Shown here one piece after another: positions 5,501 through 51,213 of a stretch of 64,000 bases of DNA. Every line of letters begins with the position of its first letter. Position 1 is the stretch's first letter. Origin of the DNA: Hysterangium stoloniferum (lineage: Eukaryota; Basidiomycota; Agaricomycetes; Hysterangiales; Hysterangiaceae); NCBI GenBank assembly GCA_015178975.1, contig WHVD01000078.1, positions 124,001 through 188,000 of the forward strand, given 5' to 3'. Under the pieces are notes generated by a model. That model was not told where the DNA came from, ran no database searches, and saw only the letters and a list, made by a program, of their open reading frames with translations. The position numbers and the translations under genes are program-made.

Positions 5501-6536
5501 TGTTAAGGGGTGCATGTGGAGCTTAGCAGAGGGTTCTGGGGAACCCATGGATATTCCGGTAGGATGTGGCTTCAGCCTATAGGCTGTGTCCTCATGAAAT
5601 CGTGTTGTCCAATTTCAGATAGGCAGACAGGAATCCTGGGGAGTCTAGGAGTAGTTGTTGAGTTGGTGGTTGAGGGTCAAGTAATAGGTTGAGTCGAAGG
5701 TTTGAGAGATAGATAGGTTGGAGCCTGTGGGCTCTGACAGGATAAGTAGTGGTATGACAAAGAGAGGAATAGGATAGGAAATCTAAGCTGAAAACTTAGT
5801 TGATTTTCTGACTGGAGTGTATGTACAAGATTAGCTAGTTTATATAGACTGCTGAGTGTATGCAGCACCAAATCCGGTAATGATGAGATCCAAACAAGTA
5901 ATCATGAAATGGGATAAGTAAACACCAAGTTTGGTGTTAGGAATGGAACAGAGCAGGAGCAGAGTCCAAATTGTGACAGGTCATTTGTCCATAATGGGAA
6001 TGGGGCTGTTGGAGAGCTGATGGGTTCTCCAAGTGGAGACCAGTGACTGATGTGTGGAACAAGGTTGGGGAGAGACAAGACAGATGTGTATGGGTCCTGG
6101 GTGGGTATTCTGGTGACTGATACATGAGACGGTGAAGGTCGAGCATGAACAGGATTGATGTCTGGGTCCTGGCAGGTATTCCAGCAAACTGATAACTGGT
6201 GCATATAGAGTGCGGGTGCGTATAGGGTGCAGGTGCGTATAGGGTGTGGGTGCGTATAGGGTGTGGGTGCGTATAGGGTGTGGGTGCGTATAGGGTGTGG
6301 GTGCGTATAGGGTGTGGGTGCGTATAGGGTGTGGGTGCGTATAGGGTGTGGGTGCGTATAGGGTGTGGGTGCGTATAGGGTGTGGGTGCATATAGGGTGT
6401 GGGTGCATATAGGGTGTGGGTGCATATAGGGTGTGGGTGCGTATAGGGTGTGGGTGCGTATAGGGTGTGGGTGCGTATAGGGTGCAGGTGCGGATAGGGT
6501 AATGCCCGGAGTCCGGCGGGTTTTCTGGTCATAACA
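5501..6536 (-). repeat. Gypsy-1 5' LTR (1036 bp)
   Basis: In element orientation it begins TGTTATGACCAG at 6536 and ends CCTTAACA at 5501. The next bases inward, GTATTTTCTGACT, are shared with Gypsy-2 at the same place. It is a divergent member of LTR family C. It is longer than the family's usual 805-819 bp because of an internal minisatellite. The right flank CTTCC (6537-6541) should be half of its TSD; the other half is outside the window. Confidence 0.88.
6203..6500. repeat. 17-bp minisatellite inside an LTR
   Basis: About 17 tandem copies of GGGTGTGGGTGCGTATA lie inside the Gypsy-1 LTR, nearly identical in the centre and more varied at both edges. Family C LTRs elsewhere hold only one or two copies of the same unit (for example near 21170-21195), so it expanded in this copy. 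As 17 is not a multiple of 3, all three minus frames stay open and give spurious His/Pro/Tyr-rich open frames. Confidence 0.95.
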
Positions 6537-8966
6537 CTTCCTGCACCAAGAATGGGGTAAAGATCCAGCACAAAAGGCTACCCAGGAAGGAATTATATCA
6601 CTTTTTAGGCAATACCTACTTGATATCAAGGAGAGAATAAATGTGTGTCTTAGTTTCTTTTTAAATATCAAACTTTTGAGCTAAAAACTTTATTTCAGGG
6701 CCCAATTGTCAAGGGCAAAGTTTCATTCATGTGTGACTGCTGGCAGGCAAGTAATGTGGACTCATACTTTGCTGTCATGGCACACTGGATTGAATGGACC
6801 AATTCAAAAACATGGACCCTACAAGCCTCACTAATTGGGTTTACAAAGATGAACTGCTCACACAGTGGCAAGTGGGTTGCAATGGCACTATTCGAACTTA
6901 TCAGCTGGGTTGATATTATAAAAAAGTAAGTACATATAACAATTACAATATCACAAGCCATTATTTAATATAATTTAATAGACTGGTTGGATCACATCTG
7001 ACAATGCAGCAAACAATGGCACAATGATGAGAGAGTTCATGGTCCTTTTTGAAGGAGCAACAGGTGAAAAATATGATTGGAAAGAACATCGTATTCGGTG
7101 AGTTTTTTGTTATGTCTGTTTTATACAATACTAACATTAAATAATATTAAAATTACAGTTGCCTTGCACATGTCATTAATTTGGCCACTCAAGCAATTAT
7201 CCCAACATATTCTGGTGCTAAACACTACAACCCACATGACCTTGAAGCATACCTTCCAACTCAAGGCACAGGTGACAAGAGGGATGTATTGGGGATAGTT
7301 CATGCCATAGTTGTGAAGGTATGTAATAAAAGATGTATTCAGTTCACACTGATACTATCTATATACTTCAGGTTCGAAGCTCAAGCAAACAAAAAGAACT
7401 ATTTCTCAAACTACAAAAGGACAAAGGCTCTGATCGCCCACAAACACTTTTATTAGATATGCCAGTTCATTGGTCATCTACATTTGTTATGGCGAACCAG
7501 GAATATCTTTTACAGGATGTAAGTGTTAAAACAGATACAATACTTGGTTATTCTGATATTTTATATTGGTTTACAGCATGTGGATCACTTTATATTTAAC
7601 ATAACTGCTGAAGAGAACAACACCATGAGGTATGCAAAACTTCGTTCACTTGCATTGGATAAGGCAGAATGGGATGAGATCCAGGAATTTCAGGAATTAA
7701 TAAGAGTAAGGATTTTATTCAATTTAACATCACATCATCCAGTTATCCATTGAATTGGTTTTATCAGTATGTAGATGCTACACAACAAGCCTTCTCATCC
7801 AAAAACCATCCTACACTTTATTTGGCAATTCCGGCACTTGAGGGATTGCATACTACATGGACAAAGCACCATTCTAAGTGTAGCCCATTGTTCATTTCAC
7901 CCCTAGGAGCTGGAATTGCAAAAATTGCTGAATACTACAACAAAACTGAGGAAACTGATGTCTATCTCATTGCCATGAGTACATCATATACATTATACTG
8001 ATCTGTCCCACTTCATAGTCCTTTATTCACAGTGCTTAATCCCTCACAAAAAGCACTGCATTTCAAGAAGTACTGGGGTGCCAAATTAAAAAATCAGGCA
8101 CTTGAGTGTGTTGAAAAGATAGTGAGAATCTGTGTTTTTCTGCTTTCAATCACTAATTTATTTTTATAGTTTCAGGAATGGTACATAAAGTTATATAGAA
8201 ATGGTGCTCCTGCCATTCAGCCTAAATACCCAAAAACCACAAAGCTATCGCAGCTTTTACTTGAACTCAAAAGTAGCAAGGATGATGACAACAACGAGAC
8301 TTCCTTGAGTGCATCACCTTGGATGCGTGAGTACCAGCACTGGTTTCAAACTCAAGAGGTAGTCCCAGAATCGAAGGGAATTGTGGAATGGTGGGGTGTA
8401 AGCTTTTAACTGCAATTTTATTTATTTCATATCCTCAATTTTTAAAACAGGTTAATTGTGATAGATATCCAGTATGGGCATCCTTAGCCCTGGATTATCT
8501 TCCCATTATGGCTTCCTCTGTATCTAGTGAGAGGGCATTTTTGGCGGGTGGCATTACACTCACATGCCGTCAAAACTGTTTAAAAAATGACATTGTTGAA
8601 GCACTTCAAGTTGTCAAATGTGCAATTCAAAAGGACCTCCTCATCCATCCTCCAATGCCTTCCTCTTCATTTGAGATGGATATTGAGAGTGACGAAGAAA
8701 TTGAAACAAGTTTACAGAGTGGGGATTCAGAGGCTGTATTGCTTGAAGTTGAGCTATCCTCTGATGAAGAGGAAATTTATGTGTAATATAAATTGATAAT
8801 ATTTTTGAGAAGTTTATTTGATTTTATTAGTAGACTACAAGTTTAAAAATCTGTTATACCACGGCCTGGGGCCCAAGCTGGGCCAGGCCAGGCCCAGGCT
8901 CTCTCTCAAAGCCCAGGCCATGAAAGCTGAGCCCAAGCCGGAGGCTTTAAGCCAGGCCGGGCCTTG
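6537..8966 (+). mobile_element. hAT DNA transposon, 3' part
   Basis: The right-hand part of a hAT transposon, whose left part is beyond Gypsy-1 outside the window. After the transposase stop comes a GGCC-rich subterminal zone (8865-8966), typical of hAT ends, and the complement of the last bases reads CAAGGCCCGG, a plausible hAT terminal inverted repeat. The following CCAATCAC could be one copy of an 8-bp target duplication, which cannot be checked here. The transposon seems to sit in the RT element to its right. Confidence 0.8.
6538..8786 (+). pseudogene. hAT transposase, N-terminal part missing
   Basis: Exons can be read at 6538-about 6640, 6699-6925, 6982-7097, 7159-7318, 7372-7518, 7577-7705, 7768-7978, 8033-8121, 8170-8397 and 8451-8786, with GT-AG introns of about 48-62 bp. 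The RNase H-like transposase core is seen (CDCWQASNVDSYF then WITSDNAANNGT, where an acidic residue follows the TSDN block, then RCLAHVINLATQA). The last exon holds the hAT dimerisation domain (YPVWASLALDYLPIMASS and SSERAFLAGG). The junction between the second and third exons does not keep frame with the splice sites I chose, so a small indel is likely there. The DNA-binding BED finger should be upstream, off the window. Probably inactive because it is split by Gypsy-1. Confidence 0.85.
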
Positions 8967-9437: not shown

Positions 9438-10571
9438 TGTTACGATTGGAAATCCCACCGGACTCCGGGTACTAGCTTATATGCACCCGCACCCTATACA
9501 CACCCGTTATCAGTTCACCGGAATTCCCACTGGACTCTGTACATCAGACTTGTCTACGTTTGACTTCGTTATGTTGCGTTTCAGTCACCGGAAAACCCAC
9601 CGGACTCCATCTCTGTCTATTTCCGACCTCATCCCGCGCATCAGTCACCAGACCCCGCTCAGTAAATCCGTCACCTCTCTAACTGAGCCCTGTTCCCATT
9701 TTAGTCAAATGACCTGTTACAATTCGGACTCCACTCCCGCTCCATTTCCCATTATGGTTTATGATTTGTCACTATTCAGACTCTGCTCTGTTCTGTCCCA
9801 TTCCTAACACCAATTTGGTGTTTACTTTTCCCATTTTAAGTTTTGCTCATTCCATTTAATCATTACTGGATTTGGTATGACATTTACTCCATGGTCTATT
9901 TAAACTGGCAGATGTTGTACATACAATCCAGTCAGAAAATTAGCTTAGATTCCCCCCAGTAATCTAATACATTTTCCGCTCTAAAACCCTACTTGAATCA
10001 CACCGCTCACACTAGTCGGAGCCCACAGGCTCCGACACATCTATCTCTCTCACCAATCTCAACTCACGACCCACGACCTCTGACCCACGACCTCCGACCC
10101 ACGACCTCCGACCCACGACCTCCGACCCACGACCTCCAACCTCCAACCTCCCACCTCCAACCTCCAACCTCCAACCTCCAACCTCCAACCTCCAACCTCC
10201 AACCTCCAACCTCCAACCTCCAACCTCCAACCTACAACCTCCGACCTACGACCTCCGACCTACGACCTCCGACCTACGACCTCCGACCTACGACCTCCGA
10301 CCTATGACCTCCGACCTACGACCTCCGACCTATGACCTCCGACCTACGACCTCCGACCTCCGACCTACGACCTCCGACCTCCGACCTCCGACCTCCGACC
10401 TACGACCCCTTGACCCACGACCCCTGCCCAGACTCCCTGGGATTCCTGTCCATCCATCTGAAATTGGACAACACGATCTAGTGAGGGTGCAGCCTATAAG
10501 CTGAAGCCGAGTCCTACTGGATATCCCGCAGGTTTCTCTGGAAACCCACCCTGTATGTATGTATCCTAACA
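9438..10571 (+). repeat. solo LTR, family C (1134 bp), TSD CGAGC
   Basis: Starts TGTTACGATTGG and ends TATCCTAACA, flanked by CGAGC at 9433-9437 and 10572-10576. Same family as the LTRs of Gypsy-2. It is about 320 bp longer than those because of the internal minisatellite at about 10062-10425. Confidence 0.95.
10062..10425. repeat. 7/14-bp minisatellite in a solo LTR
   Basis: Tandem heptamers of the type CCTCCAA, CCTCCGA and CCTACGA, partly in 14-bp pairs, in the 3' part of the LTR. Other family C LTRs have a short version of the same tract (for example 20569-20620). It causes spurious open frames in both directions. Confidence 0.92.
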
Positions 10572-15723: not shown

Positions 15724-17773
15724 TGTGAGAGGTACAGTGAAATATACTCGGGAAATATAGTCGGATAAGCTCATACTATATTTCCTTTATTATTTCTATT
15801 TTCTCTCTATTTTATTATACACTTATAATTAGTTCGACGACCTATGTTTGCAGTACATCGACTCTTGTGGGCACATACACGCCAGACTTATGCGTAGTTA
15901 AAACTCAGACACTTTTTACCTCGTAACCACAACTTACCCAGACACACAGTAAGTGTCCTGTAAGTCGTGATTGAGGTATTGTCTCGACCATCACAGACGG
16001 GCTTCAACTATCTACACATTCTTGGTTTCACACTGTACCAGTCGAAACCTTATCTATATCTCAATCCACGTGGACGACATCCACTGTAGAGAGTTCAATC
16101 GGAAAGTAACCTATATGGCAATAGTTTCAAGTCACGTCACAAGCACAAATTCTTATATATACTTTGGCACTCAATACGACTTCTACACAGCCAAATCAGT
16201 TTCATCAAACAGACGACCAAAACTCCATCATGTTCAACACTGCATCATCCTCCAAAGTAACCCTCAGTTCCTACTCAAAACCGACTCTTCACTCTCAAAT
16301 AGAACTCCAGCCAATAACATCTCGCTTCTCCTCATCTTCAGACATCATTTCCAAGCCCCTACCAGCCCACTCATGCTCCTCCAAGAAATACCATCATTTC
16401 TCCTGTCGACAAGGTATTCGACTCCCATATGCTCCAGACAATCCTGCCTTCATTCATATAGAACACTATGATGGCTCCTCCAAAATCCTCCACTATCGAT
16501 TCGATTGAGTGTTCCAGCAGGACTGTTCCCCACCGTCATTGGGAATCTGTTACATGGCAACGTTCACTCCAATAGGAGATCACAGAGGACCCAAGTTATT
16601 TAGGACCCCGGTTCCAGAGGGAAGTCAAGTAAAGCCTCATTGAGGTTGTTGTCAATTCGTGTTCCTTGCGTGGTTGTGGAGCCTACTCACCACCTGATTC
16701 TAAAATGGTGATTGATTGTGTCCCCTCCTTATACTGCAAATCTAGGAACAGAACACATCTAATCTTGGTTCATCGATTGGTAGTATTGTCAAGGTTTCGA
16801 AATCAAGCATAGCATTTGAGGGTGATGCATTATCATGGGATTCTTGAGTGTTTCTGACTCATATCATCGATGTTTCATCAGCCATCACTTCTATTACTCC
16901 ATCATCCCTATTGTCTGACTCACTTCCCCTATTGTTCTATTGTGTTTCCCCATTTATCCGTATCACATGTCTGATCTCATCTTTTGTTTGTCATTCTCTT
17001 ATTGTTCAGCACAGCCTCCCCCTATTATTGTTCACAGCTTTACTAACACTCCTATTGTGATGACTCAGAGATGACTCACACCATATCGCATCGTTATTGT
17101 GTCGTTGTTTGTAGATGTTTGATTTGACCTGTGCTCTCTCATGTATATAAGGGCCTCTCTTTTGCCCACTATTGAACAAGCAATTTTGTTGTATCTCATT
17201 TCAAAGCTCATTCTTAAGGACAACCTCTTAAGTCTTACTCTCAGTCTCACTCCTACAGCCCGTAAGGGATACTATAGTGTCTCTTATTGTTGAAGTTCTA
17301 CATTCTACGACATTGGGCTTACATCAGCCTTTTGTATTCATCTTCGATTACATCATCCAAGGTCCGATCTCTAGCCTCTCGCTCCGAGTGTGTTTGGTTA
17401 TAGACTGGTTTCAAGAACGACTGTGTCAGTGACCGTCATAAAGACTTGACCATTGCGCACAGGTTATTAGGTATATTCCTAGTAACAAACTTACATATTG
17501 GCTGCCCCAGAGAGGCCAGTGACACCTCATACACACAAATATCATCCATCACTCACATTGCATCGATCCTCCTTATTCGTAACTGATTGCCGCTTCTCTT
17601 ACATCAACATCAATCAAGCACAGCCTTCAGCCACAACAGATCAATATCTCCTCCTTCCATCCAACTTCTATTTCCACATACATTCCCTCTGACATCTCTT
17701 TCCTTATTTAGGTATCATCTAGGAACACCCAGCGCTTATAGGACAATTTAGGACATTTCAGGATTAAATCAAT

Positions 17774-18030
17774 ATGAATACCCAGGTCACACATACTAAA
17801 TTGGATTTCCCAACTCCTCGTTCATGTAATGCTCCAAAGATTTTCAAAGGTCGTTTCGATGAAGTAGAATCATTCCTAAAAGAATTTGACAAACTTTTGG
17901 ATGCCTACAATCTCTCAAATGATGACAAATTCGAACTTATTATCAATTATGTGTCAAGGAAGGTTCGAGAGACAATTGAAAGTCTTACCTCATTCGCTCA
18001 GAAGAACTGGACTGCCTTTTGCGATCAACT
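17774..18030 (+). pseudogene. family D gag start, left arm
   Basis: Opens with MNTQVTHTKLDFPTPRS and contains FDEVESFLKEFDKLLDAYN and YVSRKVRETIESL, the wording of a Ty3/gypsy gag capsid N-terminal domain. It stops being gag at the arm boundary. Fossil piece. Confidence 0.75.
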
Positions 18031-18372
18031 ATTCTCCTTGGAATTCTTGACAAACTTAGCCAGGTCCTTCTCTTTGTATCACTTCTCCATCTTGATATGA
18101 TTGTAGAGGAGCTTTAGTTGATCACAAAAGGCAGTCCAGTTGTTCTGAGCGAATGAGGTAAGACCTTCAATTGTCTCTCGAACCTTCCTTGACACATAAT
18201 TGATAATAAGTTCGAATTTGTCATCATTTGAGAGATTGTAGGCATCCAAAAGTTTGTCAAATTCTTTTAGGAATGATTCTACTTCATCTAAACAACCTTT
18301 GAAAATCTTCGGAGCATTACGTGAACGAGGAGTTGGGAAATCCAATTTAGTACATGTGACCTGGGTATTCAT
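18031..18372 (-). pseudogene. family D gag start, right arm plus spacer
   Basis: The same gag start on the minus strand. Its similarity to gag continues across the arm boundary (DQLKLLYNHIKMEK) and the sequence runs on through the 85-bp spacer, so the spacer is an extension of the right-arm copy, absent from the left arm. Confidence 0.75.
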
Positions 18373-20419
18373 ATTGATTTAATCCTGAAATGTCCTAAAT
18401 TGTCCTATAAGCGCTGGGTGTTCCTAGATGATACCTAAATAAGGAAAGAGATGTCAGAGGGAATGTATGTGGAAATAGAAGTTGGATGGAAGGAGGAGAT
18501 ATTGATCTGTTGTGGCTGAAGGCTGTGCTTGATTGATGTTGATGTAAGAGAAGCGGCAATCAGTTACGAATAAGGAGGATCGATGCAATGTGAGTGATGG
18601 ATGATATTTGTGTGTATGAGGTGTCACTGGCCTCTCTGGGGCAGCCAATATGTAAGTTTGTTACTAGGAATATACCTAATAACCTGTGCGCAATGGTCAA
18701 GTCTTTATGACGGTCACTGACACAGTCGTTCTTGAAACCAGTCTATAACCAAACACACTCGGAGCGAGAGGCTAGAGATCGGACCTTGGATGATGTAATC
18801 GAAGATGAATACAAAAGGCTGATGTAAGCCCAATGTCGTAGAATGTAGAACTTCAACAATAAGAGACACTATAGTATCCCTTACGGGCTGTAGGAGTGAG
18901 ACTGAGAGTAAGACTTAAGAGGTTGTCCTTAAGAATGAGCTTTGAAATGAGATACAACAAAATTGCTTGTTCAATAGTGGGCAAAAGAGAGGCCCTTATA
19001 TACATGAGAGAGCACAGGTCAAATCAAACATCTACAAACAACGACACAATAACGATGCGATATGGTGTGAGTCATCTCTGAGTCATCACAATAGGAGTGT
19101 TAGTAAAGCTGTGAACAATAATAGGGGGAGGCTGTGCTGAACAATAAGAGAATGACAAACAAAAGATGAGATCAGACATGTGATACGGATAAATGGGGAA
19201 ACACAATAGAACAATAGGGGAAGTGAGTCAGACAATAGGGATGATGGAGTAATAGAAGTGATGGCTGATGAAACATCGATGATATGAGTCAGAAACACTC
19301 AAGAATCCCATGATAATGCATCACCCTCAAATGCTATGCTTGATTTCGAAACCTTGACAATACTACCAATCGATGAACCAAGATTAGATGTGTTCTGTTC
19401 CTAGATTTGCAGTATAAGGAGGGGACACAATCAATCACCATTTTAGAACCAGGTGGTGAGTAGGCTCCACAACCACGCAAGGAACACGAATTGACAACAA
19501 CCTCAATGAGGCTCTACTTGACTTCCCTCTGGAACCGGGGTCCTAAATAACTTGGGTCCTCTGTGATCTCCTATTGGAGTGAACGTTGCCATGTAACAGA
19601 TTCCCAATGACGGTGGGGAACAGTCCTGCTGGAACATTCAATCGAATCGATAGTGGAGGATTTTGGAGGAGCCATCATAGTGTTCTATATTAATGAAGGC
19701 AGGATTGTCTGGAGCATATGGGAGTCGAATACCTTGTCGACAGAGGAAATGATGGTATTTCTTGGAGGAGCATGAGTGGGCTGGTAGGGGCTTGGAAATG
19801 ATGTCTGAAGATGAGGAGAAGCGAGATGTTATTGGCTGGAGTTCTATTTGAGAGTGAAGAGTCGGTTTTGAGTAGGAACTGAGGGTTACTTTGGAGGATG
19901 ATGCAGTGTTGAACATGATGGATTTTTGGTCGTCTGTTTGATGAAACTGATTTGGCTGTGTAGAAGTCGTATTGAGTGCCAAAGTATATATAAGAATTTG
20001 TGCTTGTGACGTGACTTGAAACTATTGCCATATAGGTTACTTTCCGATTGATCTCTCTACACCGCGCTACTCTATCATTCAACTCTCGTTATTCATTTCT
20101 ACACTTGAGCAGTCACTCAAGATCATACCTATGGTCAATTCCTTTATTTCGTTGTAGCTATCTACTCTACTTAGATAGTTACTTCACTTGGACATATTGA
20201 ACTAAATAGTTGATAATTGTCAGTGTGTATTGAACTTAGATAGTCCATACAACTACGTGTTGTACCTAAACGGTTGATATTCTTTGTATATAGAACGGTT
20301 AGAACTTCCACCACTCTTCACACATTGAAGGCGAGTGGCCCCCCAATCACACCACCTAAGCGCACATGGTCAGCAGCAGTGCTGCCCCATCACATCCCAT
20401 CATCATCTAAGAGGCCATG

Positions 20420-21234
20420 TGTTAGGATATGTACAGGGTGGGTTTCTGGAGAAACCCACGGGATATCTGGTAGGACTTGGCTTCAGCTTATAGGCTGCAC
20501 ACTCACTAGATTGTGTTGTCCAATTTCATATGGATGGACGGGAATCCTGGGGAGTCCGGGTGGGGGTCGTGGGTCGAGGGGTCGTAGGTCGGAGGTTGTG
20601 GGTCGTGAGTCGAGATTGGTGAGAGAGATAGATGCGCCAGAGCCCATGGGCTCCGACTAGTGTGAGCGGTGTGATTCAAGTAGGGTTTTAGAGTGGAAAA
20701 TGTATTAGATTACTGGGGGGAATCTAAGCCAATTTTCTGACTGGATTGTATGTACAACATCTGCCAGTTTAAATAGACCGTGGAGTGAATGTCATACCGA
20801 ATCCAGTAATGATGAAATGAAACGAGCAAAACATAAAACGGGAATAGTAAACACCAAATTGGTGTTAGGAACGGGATGGAATGGAGCGGAGTCCAAATAG
20901 TGACAAATCATAAACCATAATGGGAAATGGAATGGGATCGAAGTCCGAATTGTGACAGGTCATTTGACTAAAATGGGAATGGGGCTTGGGTAGAGGGATG
21001 ACGGGTTTTCTGAGTGGGGTCTGGTGACTGACATGTGGGATGAGGTTGGAAATAGACAGAGATGGAGTCCAGTGGGTTTTCCAATGACTGAAACACAATG
21101 TAATGAAGTCGAACGTAGACAAGTCTGATGTACAGAATCAGGTGGGAATTCCAGTAAATTGATAATGGGTGTGTATAGGGCGTGGGTGTGTATAAGTTAG
21201 TGCCCAGAGTCCGGCGGGATTTCCAGTCGTAACA
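20420..21234 (-). repeat. Gypsy-2 3' LTR (815 bp, family C)
   Basis: In element sense begins TGTTACGACTGG and ends TATCCTAACA. Preceded in sense by the polypurine tract. Contains the shared CATAAG/TATAAG-CTGAAGCC block near its 3' end (20471-20500). Confidence 0.95.
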
Positions 21235-21303
21235 GTACCCTCCCTTTATGCCGAAGTCCCAAAGAGGCTCTAGACCTCGATAAGGTTCTTGTCAGCTATG
21301 CGC

Positions 21304-21394
21304 ATGTGTCAAAAGTCATGTCGGTTACACATATGTGTCAAAGAGTCATGTGATCTGGAAGGTAAGGTTCAAACACAATGAGCCTATATATAAA
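21304..21394 (+). promoter_or_regulatory. likely promoter of the Gypsy-2 antisense gene
   Basis: A clear TATATATAAA at 21385-21394 lies 51 bp before the ATG at 21445. Upstream is a direct repeat of the form CATGTGTCAAAAGTCATGT (about 21304-21322 and 21333-21352), possible activator sites. All on the strand opposite to gag-pol. Confidence 0.65.
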
Positions 21395-21444
21395 TTTGAA
21401 AAAATAGAAATTTCTTCTTCTTTATTACTCCCATCTTCGACATA

Positions 21445-22401
21445 ATGGGACCAAAACCAATGCCACGCAGAGCAATGCTGACTGCCGGTCCTTCCACGGA
21501 CAACCTTTATCAGGCACTGCTCACCCAAATTTTGGCGCAGCGGGAGGAGCAACGACGACAATGGGAGGAGGCCGAAAAAGAAGCCAGGGAGGTTGAGGAT
21601 GCCCTGGATAGAAAGTACCAGGCAGCTTTGGCCACGGAGAAAGTGGCAGAGGAGAAGAGGAAGAGGGATGAGGAAGAGGCTGTGTGGGTTGCCGCAGAGA
21701 AAGCCCGGGCGGCTGTGGAGAGGGCCGCGGTAGTCGTGGGCAAGGTAAGTCCCTGTTCAACTTGTCGTTGTTTTTTTTTGACTTGGCATTTTCAGTGCAA
21801 GGTGACAGAAGTTGAGTCCAAGTTCAAGGGGGAGCTGGAGAGCCCCCAAAAGGTAAGCCTCGGATCTGTGGGATAACCGGGGAACTAACCATATCAACAG
21901 AAGGCAAGGAAGGCAGCACCAGTCTGCCTACCCACACGGAATGACCTGTGGTGTTCCAGTTGTAATGACCGGAACACTGAATGCAATCAAAAGTCTGGCT
22001 GGGGCCTGGGCTGCTACCAATGTGCGCACCTCAAAGCAAGGTGTTCTTTAGTTCATGAGCAGGCTGTGGGGTCTGGGGTGTGAGACATTAGCGGGTTGGA
22101 TGGATTTTCCAGGTTGGACGAAGTCCTGGGTCAGATCACCAAGGGCATTGAGGCCCAAAACGAGTTGCTCCAGAAGAGCAACAAGGTTCACATTGTGGTG
22201 GCGAAGGAACTGTGCAGATTCTGTGAGGAGTTTTGGAGATTCCTGGCAGAGTATGGCAGCTATATGTATGAAGAGCCGCAAGTTGGGAGTTCCGAGGATG
22301 CTGGGTCAGATGAGGACAGGGTTGCCGCAGAGGTCACAGAGCTCCCTGAGGAGATGGCTGAGGAAGTGGGAAAAAAGCACAGTCCCATAAATGTAGACTG
22401 A
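21445..22401 (+). CDS. antisense accessory gene of Gypsy-2: coiled coil plus Zn2Cys6-like cluster
   Basis: Three coding parts with GT-AG introns: 21445-21744, 21796-21852 and 21901-22401. The first is a long charged coiled coil (QREEQRRQWEEAEKEAREVE). The third opens with six cysteines spaced C-x2-C-x6-C-x9-C-x2-C-x6-C (CSSCNDRNTEC then CYQCAHLKARC), which fits the fungal Zn2Cys6 pattern, then a second helical part (LDEVLGQITKGIEAQNELLQ) and an acidic tail. The third part has one apparent break or a very short extra intron. It ends about 200 bp from the pol stop, tail to tail. Gypsy-3 and Gypsy-A have the same gene in the same place. DNA binding or transcription control is inferred only from the cysteine pattern; a packaging or coiled-coil partner role is as possible. 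Confidence 0.72.
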
Positions 22402-22601: not shown

Positions 22602-23800
22602 TCAGAGAGACGATAGTGGCCCAGGTTTGAGTTGGTAAGCTGTATGAAAGTCAGTAATGATTTCCGTGGCATTACCGAGTTCCGTGGCCAAAATCCAAGA
22701 AGTTTCTTCATTGGTGCCCTCGTAACCTGCCCACTTGACCAAGTAAAGCAGTTTACAAGTGCGTCGACACTTGTCAATTTTCGAATCTAAAATTTGCGAG
22801 ATTTCAAACTCGGGTTCTCCATCAATAATGACTGGAGGAGGCAGAGATTGCACGTGATCCGGGATAGTGTTAGCAGTACAAGGTTCTAACATAGAAACAT
22901 GAAATACCGGGTGTACCACACACATGCTATCTGGAAGCCGTAGAGTCCAAGAGACTGAACCTACTTGTGTGATAATTTCAAACGGACCTAAATATTTTTC
23001 AGCAAGCTTTTTTGATGGACGGGTAGTCCGGAAGGATTGAGCTTTGACAAAAACATGATCGCCAATCTTGAAGTTGGGTGGCAGGATCCAGTGTTTGTCC
23101 GCTGAATGTTGATATTGCTCTTGGGCAGACATTATTGCAGTCTGGAGTTCCTTGTGGAGCTTGTGGAGGTCCATGGTGAACTCTTGAGCACGAGCAGAGG
23201 CAAGATTTTGTTCTGGATGTACTGTAATATTTGGAATATATCCTTTATTTGCAAAGAACGGGGAAATGCCAGTAGTGGCCAAAGGTGCATTGTTGTAAGC
23301 AAACTCTGCAAGTGGTAACAAGGATTTCCAATTGTCCTGTTGGTAGTTGCAATATATGCGGAGATATTGTTCCAATGTCTGATTGACACATTCGGTTTGT
23401 CCGTCGCCTTCCGGGTGATGTCCGGATGTGAAATGTAATGTCATGTCCAAGGATTTCCCGAGGGATCTAAAGAAGTGAGAGATGAACTCTGATCCTCGAT
23501 CGGAAGTCATGTGGGACGGAACTCCATGCTTGGAAAATACATGGATGATAAAAAGTTCCGCTAACTGCATGGACGTAATTGTGTCATAAGTAGGGATGAA
23601 TATGTATACCTTGTTTTGAGAATCTGTCAACAACAACTAGAATGGTGGAAAAGCATTCGGAGTCCAGTAGGTGTTCAATGAAATCCATAGAGATAGAATT
23701 CCATGGGTGGTTTGGTACCAGGAGTTGTTTGAAAAGGCCGTATGGCTTGTGTTGCTGAGATTTCGAGTGGGGACAAGTAGTGCAAGATTTCAATAGTGCT
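22602..23800 (-). pseudogene. Gypsy-2 integrase with C-terminal chromodomain
   Basis: A 344-codon open stretch (22602-23636) covers most of the DDE core (FTSGHHPEGDGQTECVNQTLEQ, catalytic Glu region), the C-terminal domain and a chromodomain (LLYLVKWAGYEGTNEETSW). The zinc-binding part is at 23584-23793. The chromodomain places the element among the chromoviruses and is known to guide insertion to marked chromatin. Fossil. Confidence 0.88.
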
Positions 23801-42818: not shown

Positions 42819-43305
42819 CTACAAATCCTCAATTCCTTCCTCTCTCAATTCCACCATCTTATCAAACCATGCCCCCCTAAATCTTCCACTATTAACGCTA
42901 ATGTCAGTCTCCTCACTAAAATTGCCACTTTCGACCAATTTCTTCGACAAAACCGAAAAATCATCCCTAAACACTTTGACCTCACTGATTAAATCCTCCA
43001 TTCTTTCCTCCATTTTCGACATCCTTTCACCGATTGATTTTATTTCTTTTTCCAACTGATTATCTGACCAATATTCCGACCTTCTCAACCGTCTAGAAAA
43101 ATTTGACATTCTCGATATGATGTTGTGACGGACATTCTTCCTTTGCTTCAGTTTACGAATCCCTGGACTACCATTTTCACTTTCATTCTCTGATTCTTCG
43201 ATCACATTTTGACTCTTTTTTTGGTTTCGATGCAGTTTTCCGGCTGGCCTATTCACGGTCCAGTAACAAGCCCGATGCAATTGATTGCACCGATCACAAT
43301 TTGAT
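42819..43305 (-). pseudogene. Gypsy-A antisense accessory gene, part with cysteines and coiled coil
   Basis: Open frame on the strand opposite to pol, ending 112 bp from the pol stop. It has the first half of the six-Cys cluster (CDRCNQLHRAC, C-x2-C-x6-C), a basic stretch, then a heptad-like helix (KEIKSIGERMSKMEERMEDL). Gypsy-3 is inserted at its upstream edge. Relation to the genes in Gypsy-2 and Gypsy-3 rests on position, strand, cysteine spacing and helices. Confidence 0.65.
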
Positions 43306-43310
43306 GACAC

Positions 43311-43896
43311 TGTTACGACCCATTCCCAAATGTTTCAATATCTGACTTCCGATCTCCGACTACAGAACATCATAGTTACCATATCTTCCGCATTCTTCCC
43401 TTGTTCTGCATTTGGTAATTTGTCCATTGACAAGTATTCACTCGTTTGTCTATTATATTCCCGTTTCGGAATATTGTCTCCCTGATATGTCTTATTGTAT
43501 TTCCATTTCGGAATATTGTCTCCCTGATATGTCTTATTGTATTTCCATTTTAAGAATACTTCCATTTCCGTCTTATTATGGTCTCAGTTTGTAGTACAAT
43601 AACGAGAAGACATATATTAGTTTCCACGAATTTGTACTTTACCTTAGATCTGATATCGACTTAGTTTCTTATTCCTTCTTCCGTCTTTCTGTACGCTCAA
43701 TATTTGGAACTCTTCGGAACTCTGAATATCTGTATCTTTCATCATAAGTCTCACTTCTGAAATTAAGGACTTTGAGCATTTGCATAGAGGCACAGCACAT
43801 AAGCTGAAGCCAATGTCCTGACCCTATCCAATAGTTCCCGACTTCCCGGTGACTTTCCGATAGTTCCGGAATAAGTTCCTGACACGGCACTTAACA
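43311..43896 (+). repeat. Gypsy-3 5' LTR (586 bp)
   Basis: TGTTACGACCC to GGCACTTAACA. Holds two tandem copies of a 42-bp unit (about 43464-43547) where the 3' LTR has one. Confidence 0.94.
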
Positions 43897-43930
43897 GTAT
43901 ATCAGATCTCAACTCTGCGACTCGCTCATC

Positions 43931-45160
43931 ATGGGTCCCAAACGCAAAGCTGCTGAAGGACCATCCCAACTTCAATCCCCATTGCAACTTTACACCACTC
44001 AACCCGAAACCCCAATTCAGCCGACAACATCAGCTTCAGTCGAAGAAGTTACCAAGGAGGTTACCGAGGTAACAAAGGACCCCAATATTCCCCACACTTC
44101 CAACAACGAAGCAGAAGATCAGCCGGAGACATCGAAAAAGAAATCTTCTGACGAACCGACTGAAATGTTGTTTATCAACTCCATTGTGAAATTCGCTGAC
44201 TATTTGAAATCTGCTGAGGATAGTAAAGAATCATCCCGCACTGGAGTCAAAGAACCCGAACCATTTACCAGCAAGGATCCAAAAAAATTGAAGAATTTCC
44301 TTCTCCAATGCCATTTCAGTTTCCGTGATCAACCCATTGCATTTAAATCCGACAGTCAAAAAGTCAATTTTGCACTCTCTTATCTCAAGGATACTGCTCA
44401 AGATTGGTTCGAACCCGGACTATCTGGAATATCTGACGAGACACCTGTATGGCTCGATGACTGGGACGCTTTTGTGGAAGAACTGGAAACTAATTTTGGA
44501 CCTTACGATCAATCCAGCGAAGCAAAAATGAATTAATGACCCTTAAGATGAAGGACAATCAATGAGTTTCTGATTATCTTGTCAAGTTCAATACCTTCGC
44601 CGCACGATGTGGATGGGACGATTCCGCCCTCAGGCACCATTTCTATATGGGACTTCCATCACACCTTAAAGATGAGATCTGCAAAGATGGGAAGCCAAAA
44701 ACTCTCCAACTCATGCAGATTAAAGCTCAAACATCCGATGCCTGTTATTGGGAACGAAAAGCTGAGGTCTCTTGAGAGAACCCGACGGAACGTTCTCAGA
44801 ACAACAAGGTGTCGACTAGCAAGTCTTCCAGCAACAACTTAGGCAATAACACCGGCAACTCTGGCACTAATACTGGCAAATCAAACTCCGACTGGAAGAA
44901 AGACAAGAAATCCAACAAGGATAAACAGTCAAATTCCAACAAACCCAACATTTCCCATTTGTTGGGCACCGACGGTAAACTCACCCCGAAGGAGAAACAA
45001 TGAGGTATGGACAATGACCTCTGCCTTTTCTGCGGGAAAGGCGGACACAAGGTTTCCGACTGTACCGTTAAACCTAACTCTTCCAAGGCCCGCGTGGCAA
45101 CTTCCACTACGACTACAACGTCTAAGGAAAAACCCGCCATGGAGTTGAAAAAAGAGTAAG
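43931..45160 (+). pseudogene. Gypsy-3 gag
   Basis: Starts MGPKRKAAEGPSQ at 43931. The capsid-like part has FALSYLKDTAQDWFEPGL and NFGPYDQSSEA, followed by an Asn/Lys-rich linker and a zinc knuckle (CLFCGKGGHKVSDC) near 45020-45065. Fossil. Confidence 0.88.
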
Positions 45161-46675
45161 CAACCCTCCGGAATCTGCATGGACAGAGGGTTGCATTGAC
45201 TCTCTCTGTGTTTCCGAGGTTATCCGTCTCAACACGTCCGCTCTCTCTAATCCCAATTCATTATTTGTAAAACTCATCTCTGACTTTCTTGGAAATTTAG
45301 TGTTCTGAGCTCTGATAGATTCCGGCTCCACACACTGTTTTGTAGATACCACCTTTGCCACGAAACATAATCTGAAACTCCATTCTGTTCCTGCAATTTC
45401 CTTGCATTTGTTTGACAGCACTAGCAATACGGCAATTACCCAAGCCTGCAACATGTCTATCTGGTTCCCTTGTGGAACATCCCAGACGGTTACTTTTTTC
45501 GTAACACAGTTGGACTCTAGCTGTTCAGTAGTTGTTGGATACAACTGGCTCACCCGATATAATCCGTTGATTGACTGGGTATTGGGCAGTATTAATTTCC
45601 GAATTCCCGACACTTCAGTTCCTCCTGCAGCATCTCTTCCAGCCAACACCTTTTCGGCATCAACGGCATCAACGGCTTCTACCGAAACCTCCGTGCCTCC
45701 AAAAATCTCTCTCATCAATGCTTCAGCATTTGTTAGGGCGAGTAAACTGGATGGTTCACAGTGTTTTCGATCAGCTTAAAAGTTGATGAAGCATCTGGAT
45801 GTTTTGTGACTCCAGAATTATCCAAGCTAAAAGCTGACCTGGAAGGAGTTCCCGAAAAATACCATGATTTTGCGGACATTTTCAGTAAGCAAAAAGCTGA
45901 CAGGCTTGCACCACATAGGCCCTACGACTTGAAAATTGATATTGAGCCCAGTTCAAACCCTCCATTAGAACCTATTTACCCATTATCCCAATCGGAACTT
46001 TCATCCATTCGGGAGTTCCTGGATGAACATCTGTCGATAGGTTTTATTTGTCCCTCAAAGTCTCCATACAGAGTGCCTGTCCTTTTCATCAGAAAAAAGA
46101 ATGGCTCCCTTCGACTCTGTGTTGATTTCAGAGGATTAAATTCCATCACATGGAAATATAAGTATCCACTTCCACTCATTACCGATTTACTTGATGCCCC
46201 ATGGAAAGCTCGGATCTACACCAAAATAGACCTCAAACACACCTATCATTTGGTCCGAATTGCTGAGGGCGATGAATGGAAAACTGCTTTTCGGACTCGC
46301 TATGGATCCTTTGAATGGTTGGTTATGCCGTTCGGCCTTACCAATGCCCCTTCCACTTTTCAACGTTTTGTTAATGATATATTTTCCAACATGCTTGATG
46401 TATGTGTTATAGTCTATTTGGACGACATTTTGGTATTTTCCGAGGATCCCACTCTTCATGATGAACAGGTCTGTGAAGTCTTCCAAAGACTCCATAAAAA
46501 CGGCCTTTTCACCAACAGTAAAAAATGTTACTTTGACATGGATTCTATTGAATACTTAGGTTTCATTATTGGACCTGAGGGTCTCCGTATGGATGAAACC
46601 AAGGTTCAAGTGTCCGTGATTGGCCCGAACCACGGAAAGTCAAGGACATTCAGTCATTTTTAGGTTTTGCCAACT
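45160..46675 (+). pseudogene. Gypsy-3 protease and reverse transcriptase
   Basis: Protease with [16 protein letters not shown] near 45310-45360. A 300-codon open stretch (45761-46663) holds [51 protein letters not shown] and [14 protein letters not shown]. Fossil. Confidence 0.9.
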
Positions 46676-48834
46676 TTTACCGTTGTTTTATTCGGAATTA
46701 CTCGGATATTACAGTACCGCTCACTCGTCTTACCCGTAAAACTCAACCATGGGTCTTTGACGACAAATACTGCTCTGCTTTCCAGACTTTGAAAAATGCT
46801 TTCACTTCTGCCCCAATTCTTTCTCATTGGAAACCTGATGTTCCGATTATTGTGGAAACCGATGCTTCCGATTATGCAATTGCCATGATTCTTTTCATTC
46901 AAGATTCCGACGGTGAAATTCATCTGGTTGCATTCCTTTCTCAGACACTGAAAGTGTCCGAACTCAACTACGACGTTCATGATAAGGAACTTTTGGCAAT
47001 TTTTGAAGCTTTCAAACATTGGCGCCATTATCTCGACGGTTCCGCAACTCCTGTTGACATTGTTACCGATCACAAAAATCTTGAATATTTTTCTACCACT
47101 AAACTTTTAACCCACCGGCAAGCCCACTGGTCCGAATTCCTTTCCACTTTCAACATGATTATCCGTTTCTGACCCGGACATCTTGGTGGAAAACCAGATG
47201 CCATGACTCGACAATGGGACGTCTATCCTAAAGAGGGGGAAAGTAACTATGCTGTTGTTAATCTGCATAACTTGAAACCAGTTTTTACAATGCAACAACT
47301 TTCCCGAGCAACTTCCCTCTACTATCCAATTATGCATAGCATCATGATTATGGACATTGAGCAATTACATCAAGATATCCTTTCCACACTCACTTCCAAT
47401 CCGGCTCTCAAGCCACATCTAGAAGTTCCTGACAATCCCGACCAACCCCAATGGTCACAAGACTCTCAAGGTTTTATCTGTCTCGATGGACATATCTACG
47501 TTCCAGATTCCAACAATCTCCGACTCCACGTACTTCAGTACAAACACGATCATCCAATCTCCAGACATTACGGCATTAACAATACTCTTGGTTTGATCCG
47601 TAGAGAATTTACTTGGCCCAACCTCTGAGATTTCGTAACCCAGTTCTGTAAGTCATGCACCACCTGCTTACGCTCTAAGACCCAGAGGCATAAGCCATAC
47701 AGCCTTCTCAAGCAACTCCCAATACCGGAAAAACCCTGGAACTCAATTTCCATGGATTTCATCGAACAACTCCTGACTTCTGAAGGCTTTACATCCATTC
47801 TAGTTGTTGTGGATCGATTCTCGAAACAAGGCATTTTCATACCCACTCATGATACAATCACGTCCTTACAATTAGCGGAACTTTTCATTATTCACATATT
47901 TTCCAAACATGGAGTTCTGTCTCACGTACCTTCCGATCAAGGCTCCAAGTTCATCTCCCATTTCTTCCAGGCCCTCAGAAAAGCCCTCAACATGAAACTA
48001 CACTTCACCTCAGGATATCACCCGGAAGGTGATGGACAAACGGAACGCGTAAATCAAACATTGGAACAATATCTCCACATCTATTGCAATTATCAACAGG
48101 ACAACTGGAAATCCCTTCTTCTGATCATGGAATTCGCCTACAATAACTCTCTGAATGCAACTACTGGCATATCTCCTTTTTTCGCCAACAAAGGCTATAA
48201 TCCGAATCTCACTGTACATCCTGAACGAGATTTGGCTTCTGTCCGTGCTGAAGAATTTATTACCGACCTTGACAAATTACATCAAGAACTTCGGAAAGCT
48301 ATTTCTTCCGCACAGGAATATTATCAACGTTCTGCGGACAAAAACAGGATCCTGCCTCCTAATTTTGAAATTGGTGATCAGGTTTTTGTAAAAGCTCAAT
48401 TCTTCCATACCATCCGACCTTCTAAAGAAATTGCTGAGAAATTCTTAGGCCCATTTGAAATTATAGCACAAGCCGGTTCACTCTCATGGACTCTCCGACT
48501 TCCCGATAGTATGTGAGCAGTTCATCCCGTTTTCCACATTTCCATGTTAGAACCCTGTGTTCCTAACAAAATCCCAGAACGTATTCAACCTCTGTCCCCT
48601 CCAGTCATCATTGATGGAGAACCCGAATATGAAGTTTCTGAAATTTTGGATTCTAAAATTGACAATTGCCGACGTACTTGTAAATTGCTCTATTTAGTCA
48701 AATGGGCAGGTTATGAAGGTACCGACGAGGAAACTTCATGGATATTGGCCACGGAACTTGGACATGCTATGGAAATTGTTACTGACTTCCACACAGCTTA
48801 TCCAAGCAAACCCGGACCTTTATCATCACTCTAA
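46676..48834 (+). pseudogene. Gypsy-3 RNase H, integrase and chromodomain
   Basis: RNase H at 46789-47172 (VETDASDYAIAMIL, HDKELLAIFEAF), integrase at 47203-48516 (zinc region, VDRFSKQGIFIPTHDT, FTSGYHPEGDGQTERVNQ, a 254-codon open core) and chromodomain at 48544-48834 (LLYLVKWAGYEGTDEETSW). Fossil with several breaks. Confidence 0.9.
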
Positions 48835-48928
48835 CCCTTTTCTGTTTCTTTCTGTTCAGTCTCCGACACTTCCATTATCACACTCACTTTTAGGTTTTGC
48901 AAGTCAAAAAAATATTATTAGGACTATC

Positions 48929-50069
48929 TTAGAGTCTCTGATACCCCAAATCCACTTTCCATCCCGACTCCCATCTCATCAGCAACCTCCGCACTTTCCA
49001 CCATATCCTGCACCTCTTCATCCTCACTCTCTGATACTTCCAGCCCATTTCCTGACTCCCACCTTTTTTCGACACATTCCGCCAACGGATCATTAGGCTG
49101 TTCCCGTGTGCCTTATCGGAAAATCTCTCGGATACTGCGATAACACCGATGCTAACCATTATCTTCTCCAGAAATTCGTTTTGCCTCCGGAAATTCCGGA
49201 TCAATGAATGGAAACCCTTTTCCTGGATCTCATTATGGTGATCTAGTGTATCCCGCATTTTCATGACTTCCATCCCGATAAAGACCAACACATCAACGGT
49301 GTCCTTGAGGAGCTCAATGCCCATACTATCCGTTTTCGGCACCTCAGTTTCCGCAGCTTTGGCTGCTCCCGAACTTTCTGCATTGTTAGTTTTCTGAGCC
49401 TTCTCACCTTTTGGAATCCTTTTCGAGGCGAGAGTGCATGGAAGTTTAAGAACCGTGCAGGGATAGCAAGTTCCACCCCATTTTACCTTCTGTTTCCAAC
49501 ATGTCATATTCCATATGGAACATCGATAACACGGATTGTCATGGACGACTTCCATCCGTTCCAGAGCCTTGACCTTTGGCTTCTGTTTCGGAAGTTAATC
49601 AAATACTGACCTTTTGTAGATGCACTTACTTTAGGACTCGAAGGTCCAGCCTCTCCCTCTACCTCCACCTCCATGGCTTTTCGCTGTACCCAATAGTTAT
49701 CGGTTGGAACCATGGAAAAATTATGGATCGAACTTACCTTTCCTTCCCTTATCTCCTTAAGTTTTTCCACCACCTCTGACTCCCACTGTGATCTTTCCGG
49801 CTCTTCCTTCTTTCTCTGAGCCTCCACCATTTTCCGGATCCACGCTTCTTTTTCCGCCTTCACTCGCTCCAACTCCCGTTTTTCTGCCTCTTCCGCCTCT
49901 TTCAACTCCTGCATCAATGCCTTTTCCTCCTCCTCCTGTTGTCGCTTCAACTCCTCCATCCTTTGTCGTTTTTGTTGAAGTTCTGCGACCTTCGACATTT
50001 TTTGAAGTATGGCAATTTTGGTATCTGAATCTTCCGGGGTAGTGATGAATAATGGCCAACAAATCAACA
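48929..50069 (-). CDS. antisense accessory gene of Gypsy-3: coiled coil plus Zn2Cys6-like cluster
   Basis: Minus-strand parts with GT-AG introns: about 50069 or 49998 down to 49738, 49683-49630 (54 nt), and 49582 down to about 48929. The first is an unbroken charged coiled coil (ELKRQQEEEEKALMQELKEA). The third has six cysteines spaced C-x2-C-x6-C-x10-C-x2-C-x6-C (CYRCSIWNMTC then CYPCTVLKLPC), then a helical region and an acidic end, with one apparent break. A TATAAAAA box on this strand (50126-50119) is about 50 bp from the upstream ATG. The stop lies 94 bp from the pol stop, tail to tail. Exon plan and intron sizes match the Gypsy-2 gene although sequence identity is low. Confidence 0.7.
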
Positions 50070-50255
50070 TGCAAGTTGTGGATAAAGAAACAAAAACATT
50101 AATTCAAATATTTGGAGGTTTTTATACTCAGAACAACAGCCGAAACTCACACCTCCAGAATTGCATAAATTTCACAACACATAATAATCAGCCGTCGCTT
50201 CAATCACTCAGTACCTAATCGCCTCTATGGGATTTTGGCCTAACAGGGGGGTACT

Positions 50256-50798
50256 GTTACGACCCGTTCCTGGATGTTTCAATATCCGACTTCCGATCTC
50301 CGACTATGGAACATCATAGTTACCGTATCTTCCGCATTCTTCCCTTGTTCCGCATTTGGTAATTTGTCCATTGACAAGTATTCACTCGTTTGTCTATTAT
50401 ATTCCCATTTCGGAATATTGTCTCCCTGATATGTCTTATTGTATTTTTGTTTTAAGAATACTTCCGTTTCCGTCTTATTATGGTCTCAGTTTGTAGTACA
50501 ATAACGAGAAGACTTATATTAATTTCTGTGAATTTGTACTTTACCTTAGATCTGATATCAACTTAGTTTCTTATTCCTTCTTCCATCTTTCTGTACACTC
50601 GATATTTGGAACTCTTCAGAACTCTGAATATCCGTATCTTCCATTGTAAGTCTCACTTCTGAAATTAAGGACTTTGAGCGTTTGCGTAGAGGCGCAGCAC
50701 ATAAGCTGAAGCCAATGTCCTGACCCTATCCGATAGTTCCCAACTTCCCGGTGACTTTCTGATAGTTCCAGAATAAGTTCCCGACACGGCACTTAACA
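50256..50798 (+). repeat. Gypsy-3 3' LTR (543 bp)
   Basis: Partner of 43311-43896, with one copy of the 42-bp unit. Ends GGCACTTAACA before the TSD. Confidence 0.94.
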
Positions 50799-50803
50799 GA
50801 CAC

Positions 50804-51213
50804 ATTACTTTTCTTACACACGAAATTCATGTTGAAACACATCGTGCAACTGGAAAAAACAAATTAGCAAAATTCAACAAAAATTTGACAAAACCAAAAA
50901 ATTATGAATTTTCCAATTTTGCCTCAAATTCCCATTGCATCCCAATTCCCTTACGAGTCACCTTATTGAACGGTTCTTCACAGTCTTCTATGCGCTTTTT
51001 GGGAGTTTCTTCTAAAAAACAACTAATTAACTAATTTAAAGAAATCCCAGAAATTGACTTACCAACCGCATCAACAACTACATCTCTATCCTCGAAACCC
51101 AAAAACTCGGATCCTGATTCAAGCTGATCGACTTCTATATCAGACATTGATTGATGAACACGAAAATAGACGATGAAAAACTTTTCAAACTCCGACCTCA
51201 TGGGCTTGGTCAC
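50804..51213 (-). pseudogene. Gypsy-A antisense accessory gene, upstream part
   Basis: On the far side of Gypsy-3. An ATG at 51213, only 15 bp from the 3' LTR, opens an acidic segment (MSDIEVDQLESGSEFLGFED) followed by a GTAAGT site. A second possible coding stretch with TPKKRIEDCEEPF lies near 50930-51010. The promoter would be in the LTR, read in antisense. Confidence 0.5.

Follow-up and report, generated by a model that had tools for sequence, protein, structure and literature searches.

An antisense gene with a zinc-cluster-like domain is preserved by selection in three chromovirus families of the basidiomycete Hysterangium stoloniferum

Three families of chromoviral retrotransposons in the genome of Hysterangium stoloniferum, an ectomycorrhizal, truffle-like basidiomycete, carry a gene antisense to gag-pol, and computation shows that natural selection has preserved its protein through rounds of transposition. 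The window analysed is a 64 kb stretch (contig C531:124001-188000) of the genome (111 Mb, 554 contigs), in which the elements Gypsy-2, Gypsy-3 and Gypsy-A each carry the gene, with its two introns, between pol and the 3' LTR; each family has it at at least 40 places in the genome, the window included, the best 40 being scored in each case. We think it fairly probable that the product is an element-encoded nuclear zinc-cluster regulator, made from the gene's own antisense promoter. A sequence-only reading of the window had placed the gene antisense to gag-pol between pol and the 3' LTR, in a chromovirus, and both statements hold for all three elements. The Chromo domain that identifies a chromovirus sits at the integrase end in Gypsy-2, Gypsy-3 and Gypsy-A, scoring 28.5, 29.1 and 31.4 bits respectively, each above the Pfam cut-off of 25.1.

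The Gypsy-2 gene lies on the plus strand. The 3' LTR of the element (20420..21234, minus strand; start approximate, from the repeat pair 20420/28068) ends in ...TAACA and is adjoined by a purine-rich tract, AAAGGGAGGG, at 21247-21238 on the minus strand. A promoter-like region (21235..21444, plus strand) with the TATA-type sequence TATATATAAA from 21385 leads to exon 1 (21445..21744, 300 nt), which begins with ATG and whose product in a young copy is a long run rich in E, A, K, R and Q, devoid of P or G and coiled-coil-like. Intron 1 (21745..21795, 51 nt, GTAAGT...CAG), exon 2 (21796..21852, 57 nt), intron 2 (21853..21900, 48 nt, GTAAGC...CAG) and exon 3 (21901..22401, 501 nt) follow on the same strand; exon 3 contains the zinc-cluster-like region (21952-22044), a premature TGA in the window copy (22081-22083), the acidic tail and the stop codon (22399-22401). 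The end of exon 1, exon 2 and the start of exon 3 encode a basic stretch, KRK...KKARK in young copies. Pol is convergent with the gene, its C-terminus (22602..23636, minus strand) comprising the integrase end, SH3_Tf2-1 and Chromo domains with the stop codon at the low end. The gene was aligned over 37 sequences, these being the window and 36 of 39 copies, with L022, L046 and L047 omitted as short matches. The intron 1 donor reads GTAAGT in 35 sequences, GTATGT in one and GCAAGT in one, and the acceptor CAG in 35, TAG in one and CAA in one; intron 2 has a GT donor and a CAG acceptor in all 37. A third intron around the TGA at 22081 was considered and rejected, since the alignment is continuous there and the codon is TGA in 12 of the 37 sequences and mostly TGG, CGA or CAA in the rest, as expected of CpG-type decay. 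The window also holds a very large, near-perfect palindrome adjoining Gypsy-2 (arms 16085-18031 and 18115-20061, each of 1947 nt, 99% complementary and 83 nt apart) and tandem arrays at 10018-10458 and 6130-6568, with units of 14 and 17 nt respectively.

Gypsy-3 (43311..50798, plus strand, TGTTA...TAACA) is inserted into the antisense gene of Gypsy-A, between the codons for its third and fourth cysteines, and is flanked by a 5-bp duplication, GACAC, read by eye at 43306-43310 and 50799-50803. Its own antisense gene runs on the minus strand from a TATA box, TATAAAA, beginning at 50126, through exon 1 (49738..50070, 333 nt), exon 2 (49630..49683, 54 nt) and exon 3 (48924..49582, 659 nt in the window copy, with a frameshift near the C-terminus), the last containing the zinc-cluster-like region (49436-49531); the introns of the window copy measure 54 and 47 nt. 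The alignment for this family comprises 21 sequences, the window and 20 copies from 39 other listed places. Short GT-AG introns about middle exons of 57 and 54 nt, as first described for Gypsy-2 and Gypsy-3, are borne out. The gene end originally proposed for Gypsy-3, 48929, was dropped for that of the frame common to the other copies, 48924. In Gypsy-A the gene, also on the minus strand, consists of exon 1 (51063..51147, 85 nt), exon 2 (50906..51011, 106 nt; the donor of the next intron reads AT in the window copy) and an exon 3 divided into a first part encoding cysteines 1-3 (50804..50849) and a remainder encoding cysteines 4-6, a helix-rich part and the stop (42819..43305). The Gypsy-A set comprises 12 copies from 39 listed places, to seven of which the splice pattern can be applied. 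The idea of one plan in three elements stands for Gypsy-2 and Gypsy-3 and holds only in part for Gypsy-A, in which the exons measure 85, 106 and 535 nt (uninterrupted copy L079, stop codon not counted) and the protein has, by eye, no N-terminal coiled coil. The expected spacing of 94-200 bp between gene and pol stop agrees with 200 bp in Gypsy-2 (22401 on the plus strand to 22602 on the minus), 112 bp in Gypsy-A (42819 to a pol end at 42706) and 94 bp in Gypsy-3, measured from 48929 to the pol C-terminus with its Chromo domain (48517..48834, plus strand; stop ending at 48834), or 89 bp from the stop at 48924 used by other copies.

The gene had been called open in all three elements, a description that fails in the window: Gypsy-2 has the in-frame TGA, Gypsy-3 is frameshifted and Gypsy-A is split by Gypsy-3. 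An uninterrupted spliced product is encoded by two of 37 aligned Gypsy-2 and one of 21 Gypsy-3 sequences, and none of the seven spliceable Gypsy-A copies is free of stops or shifts. TGA accounts for 70 of the 79 stop cells in the Gypsy-2 alignment, mostly where other copies have CGA, CAA, TGG or similar, as expected of CpG-type decay after insertion. Most differences among the Gypsy-2 copies L009-L047 are C/T or G/A transitions; at third positions the value is 0.249 with all changes counted and 0.059 with transversions only. These transitions, with TGA as the main stop, represent CpG-type repeat decay in H. stoloniferum. Eight young elements were chosen for their open pol frames (seven of 1276-1368 aa, one of 873 aa) among 150 places listed from a domain search, and seven of them carry the antisense gene. 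Six of these seven encode a full spliced product of 294-298 aa, with all six cysteines in five and one cluster cysteine replaced in the other, L086; the product of the seventh, L085, stops at 188 aa. In the remaining young element, L081, a scan for ORFs and the cysteine pattern found no recognisable antisense gene.

Selection on the protein was assessed from transversions only, which keeps CpG decay out of the test, by counting changes shared by at least two copies and changes private to one; the resulting omegas are approximate count ratios, not model fits. The comparison assumes that private changes are neutral post-insertion decay and that shared changes mostly predate insertion, a distinction that repeated mutation and duplicated insertions blur; L035 and L036, for example, are nearly identical and perhaps one insertion found twice, which would make a few private changes count as shared. 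Shared transversions at codon positions 1/2/3 number 26/27/79 in Gypsy-2 (37 sequences), 2/2/18 in Gypsy-3 (21) and 2/3/12 in Gypsy-A (12), giving third-position shares of 79/132, 18/22 and 12/17 (binomial p for the excess 4e-10, 4e-6 and 0.002), against private counts of 33/38/36, 19/17/27 and 8/4/8. Omega is accordingly 0.24 for shared versus 0.85 for private changes in Gypsy-2, 0.21 versus 0.59 in Gypsy-3 and 0.14 versus 0.69 in Gypsy-A, the contrast having a Fisher p of 4e-5, 0.0015 and 0.062, the last being weak for Gypsy-A alone. Read in its other frames, the Gypsy-2 gene has shared omegas of 1.26, 1.40, 1.64, 0.44 and 2.0; the 0.44 comes from an antisense frame and is explained by that frame sharing its third positions with the gene. 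As a control, Gypsy-2 pol (26 of 40 sequences) has an omega of 0.13 shared versus 0.83 private (4/5/17 versus 26/29/30 by position), and a short piece of Gypsy-3 pol (16 of 21 sequences) has 0/0/4 shared versus 14/4/11 private changes, with a private omega of 0.75. The coding conservation of the Gypsy-2 gene, at 0.24 versus 0.13 for pol, is thus like that of other genes of the element, and its introns vary like third positions, with 0.329 and 0.281 shared transversions per column.

Constraint is strongest, on few events, in the six-cysteine cluster and the preceding basic stretch. Shared omega in Gypsy-2 is 0.05 in the cluster (six events) and 0.09 in the basic stretch (11 events), rising to 0.26 in exon 1, 0.35 in the later helical part and 0.34 in the acidic tail; the private values are 0.48 (eight events), 2.05, 0.81, 0.82 and 0.99 for the same regions. 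Dozens of decayed copies supply an internal neutral control, which makes this evidence for a selected protein unusually direct. The sequence-only reading had taken the kept layout as a sign of selection and had named beforehand, among its own refuting conditions, a lack of purifying selection among genomic copies; such selection was found at the level of the protein in all three families, and the selection tests likewise support the gene as more than a chance reading frame.

The cysteines follow the spacing C-x2-C-x6-C-x(8-10)-C-x2-C-x6-C, with the linkers of x9 in Gypsy-2 and x10 in Gypsy-3 that had been reported and x8 in Gypsy-A, and the pattern is retained across family members, in 34 of 37 Gypsy-2, 18 of 21 Gypsy-3 and 12 of 12 Gypsy-A sequences. 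An hhalign comparison establishes homology between the proteins of Gypsy-2 and Gypsy-3 in the part encoded by exon 2 and in the cluster (probability 96.6, E 5.9e-10, 41% identity across 71 columns), and Gypsy-A aligns on the same cysteines with weak profile matches to the other two (p 0.0034 and 0.023). Fungal Zn2Cys6 clusters have the general motif C-x2-C-x6-C-x(5-12)-C-x2-C-x6-C, within which the spacing of the antisense gene falls (PF00172). Against the Zn_clus profile, which has a cut-off of 21 bits, fragments of two young Gypsy-2 copies score 15.4 and 15.3, another Gypsy-2 fragment 14.5 and a Gypsy-3 fragment 12.4; as whole proteins, two Gypsy-2 sequences score 7.6 and 8.0 bits and Gypsy-3 is not listed. 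With E allowed up to 10, Zn_clus was matched in four of ten proteins (lowest E 0.017). The profile found with a Gypsy-A fragment was instead PHD_2, likewise below cut-off, and six half-clusters scanned alone gave no Zn_clus match. The profile matches two stretches in each of the two young Gypsy-2 fragments, and the best match sets the first half of the cluster on positions 16-31 or 16-32 of 39, which is the profile's second half; the Gypsy-3 fragment aligns in normal order. To judge from the alignment order, the zinc cluster is apparently half-swapped.

Between cysteines 2 and 3, Zn2Cys6 proteins have basic residues that contact DNA. The example copies of the three families largely lack these, with one K or R in that interval in Gypsy-2 L080 and none in Gypsy-3 L065 or Gypsy-A L079; in some further Gypsy-3 copies the interval has a single R. 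The linker of the three example copies contains three, three and two K or R, respectively. A ten-sequence profile compared with the PDB at E<=10 retrieved only the zinc-cluster proteins LEU3 (two entries) and PPR1, at weak E-values of 0.65-5.6, and a single cluster fragment retrieved no match there. Among the antisense-gene places listed (best 40 per family), none coincides with any of the 42 PF00172 matches in the genome. Groups of two to four nearby Zn_clus matches occur at C56:27459-28077, C56:39173-39800, C56:44795-45410, C115:74483-75050 and C209:14977-15583, some apparently in one open frame, and may be multi-cluster Zn2Cys6 proteins. Structure prediction for a piece of Gypsy-3 exon 3 was uninformative (pLDDT 39.5). 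The description of the product as Zn2Cys6-like is therefore upheld in the spacing and not in PF00172 membership, scores reaching 15.4 bits at most against 21 and the order of the halves being apparently swapped; in our view the product probably works like a zinc-cluster protein and should not be filed as a member of that family. Protein searches for relatives outside the genome, of limited sensitivity (one covered the best 8000 candidates sharing most words, and another gave no match), returned only P0001 and P0002 of H. stoloniferum itself, weak evidence for a lack of relatives, since protein sets often omit transposon genes. Nothing in the analysis confirmed that other agaricomycetes have similar proteins with a coiled coil and six cysteines.

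The region upstream of the gene is itself conserved. A TATA box lies 57-60 bp upstream of the ATG in all seven young carriers, and across 34 of 40 sequences the 131 columns of 21236-21366 contain two shared transversions, whereas the 5' leader of the Gypsy-2 gene has 11 in 49 columns; private transversions occur at 0.08-0.10 per column in the former and 0.245 in the latter. Part of 21236-21366 doubles as the purine-rich primer region. Within the conserved stretch, a direct repeat around ATGTGTCAAA...AGTCATGT was seen by eye about 100-150 nt before the ATG in seven young copies (L080 and L082-L087), at 21300-21366 in the window, and is a candidate regulatory site. CGG-containing runs such as ACGGAACGGAGCGGAGTCCG occur in the LTRs of the same seven copies, about 500-580 nt before the ATG. 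CGG half-sites in the LTR were considered and dropped, because the triplets are enriched in seven LTRs (z 1.7-3.6) and equally in three gene regions (z 2.3-3.7), and so are not specific to the LTR.

Twenty-five sequences, the window among them, are present in both Gypsy-2 alignments. At third positions their transversion divergence is roughly threefold higher in the gene (0.059) than in pol (0.018), and pairwise distances for gene and pol are nearly uncorrelated (r 0.14). The density of shared transversions peaks at 0.187 per column in 21420-21719 (16-26 sequences per piece). In pieces from the LTR and its edge it is 0.043-0.098, and in those from 22420 onwards 0.010-0.056; private density ranges over 0.067-0.132 across the same pieces. 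Incompatible site pairs amount to 0.22 to 0.46 within the gene, rising with distance, and to 0.66 between gene and pol; pol-pol pairs are incompatible in 27 of 36 cases from only nine sites, a high value which implies that recombination extends beyond the gene-pol border. Together these patterns suggest template switching between lineages, with tighter codon constraint on pol as an alternative that may account for some of them; repeated mutation may add to the incompatible pairs. A wider proposal, which we hold tentatively and rate as somewhat doubtful, is that basidiomycete chromoviruses might encode a sequence-specific nuclear regulator of their own, with a half-swapped zinc cluster, whose gene would be a fast-diversifying module that recombines apart from pol. 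Such a module would be expected if it co-evolved with binding sites in the LTR or with host silencing.

Taken as a nuclear regulator, the product would be made and act as follows. Host RNA polymerase II would transcribe the antisense gene from the conserved, TATA-containing upstream region. Introns in sense orientation are expected to be lost from retrotransposon genes; here they would persist because the genomic RNA, the template for reverse transcription, contains them in reverse and cannot have them spliced out, and that they are retained is consistent with expression solely from an antisense promoter of the gene's own. Four features mark the product: the basic stretch (KRK...KKARK in L080), the helical segments, the cluster and the acidic tail. 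It would enter the nucleus through the first, pair through the second, use the zinc-cluster-like region to bind the LTRs of its own element, as DNA or as chromatin, and contact the transcription machinery through its tail. In this way the element would encode a regulator of its own expression or silencing state. Of the mobile regulator first proposed, the core is sustained by selection in three families, together with the promoter-like region, the basic stretch and the constraint on the cluster, and membership of PF00172 is not.

A post-entry accessory protein, travelling with the cDNA-integrase complex and serving nuclear import, RNA or cDNA handling or the choice of integration site rather than transcription, we regard as unlikely: its own promoter-like region and antisense orientation set the gene apart from the Gag-Pol precursor, and the spacing is that of a binuclear cluster and not of a CCHC knuckle, although the basic stretch, helical parts and cysteine cluster would suit a handler of nucleic acids. 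A review that discusses such ORFs mentions nuclear function and the pre-integration complex (PMC7264820). The convergent layout with pol and the nucleic-acid-binding look of the product would equally accommodate a nuclear protein that acts on the sense RNA of the element, controlling its splicing, export or silencing, but the best, if weak, profile relatives are DNA-binding factors, and we consider this improbable. That the element recently captured the gene from its host and carries it as a passenger serving a host function is very improbable despite the gene's spliced structure and host-like promoter region, given three families with diverged proteins, selection that acts inside the element and protein searches, of limited sensitivity, without a match outside the genome. 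Least credible of all is an antisense transcript that acts as RNA with an incidental reading frame, for which the stops in the spliced frame of 35 of 37 Gypsy-2 and 20 of 21 Gypsy-3 sequences (at least one in each) might speak, and which is opposed by the bias in codon position that shared changes show in all three families and private changes show weakly or not at all, by the predominance of TGA among Gypsy-2 stops that CpG codon decay after insertion predicts and by the full-length frame in six of seven young carriers.

Antisense accessory genes have so far been known from plants and one ascomycete element. Since constraint here centres on one small cysteine cluster, the question of function becomes testable, with three handles on it: a candidate domain of 31 residues, roughly 130 bp of conserved sequence upstream, and young copies still intact in a living fungus. 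A retrotransposon with its own zinc-containing, DNA-binding-like regulator, as read from these sequences, suggests that jumping genes may control themselves. The sequence-only reading named such antisense genes in plants and knew of no fungal chromovirus with a Zn2Cys6-like one; a fungal precedent for the arrangement does exist: two papers describe brtn, credited to Zhao et al. 2011, as an antisense gene between pol and the 3' LTR of Boty-like Ty3/Gypsy elements of Botrytis cinerea (PMC7264820, PMC8365987). Compared by those descriptions only, brtn resembles the Hysterangium gene as an extra antisense gene in the same place in a fungal LTR element. The host of brtn is an ascomycete and the present one a basidiomycete. 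A survey of fungal elements does not use the word antisense in its main text (PMC3248453), and no title or opening of an abstract among the open-licence papers listed, a body without most subscription journals, describes such a gene in basidiomycetes or with a zinc cluster.

Plant Ty3/Gypsy elements described as having an antisense ORF between pol and the 3' LTR, the place and orientation of the Hysterangium gene, are Grande (gene23), RIRE2 and Retand (PMC7264820, PMC11963269); gene23 is equipped with a promoter of its own and its product is nuclear (PMC7264820), and the Retand products are proposed to be DNA binders with a regulatory role (PMC11963269). Retand differs in belonging to a non-chromovirus plant lineage and in having a TRP28 domain in place of the six-cysteine cluster. 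HBZ of HTLV-1 is likewise an antisense retroelement gene; its product is nuclear (PMC11963269) and its antisense promoter lies in the 3' LTR (PMC7264820), and the likeness is one of analogy only. Zn2Cys6 factors such as LEU3, PPR1 and GAL4 (PF00172) share with the Hysterangium protein the spacing of six cysteines and the union of basic, helical and acidic parts in one protein, from which it differs in its sub-threshold score, in a first half that, for fragments of young Gypsy-2 copies, aligns with the profile's second half, in basic residues that lie mostly in the linker and second half and in being borne by a retrotransposon. Set beside these systems, what is new, as far as we found, is the occurrence of such a gene in basidiomycete chromoviruses, its two conserved introns, its zinc-cluster-like domain and a selection test with an internal neutral control; should the product prove to be a regulator that binds DNA, zinc-cluster regulation encoded by the element itself would join the repertoire of chromoviruses.
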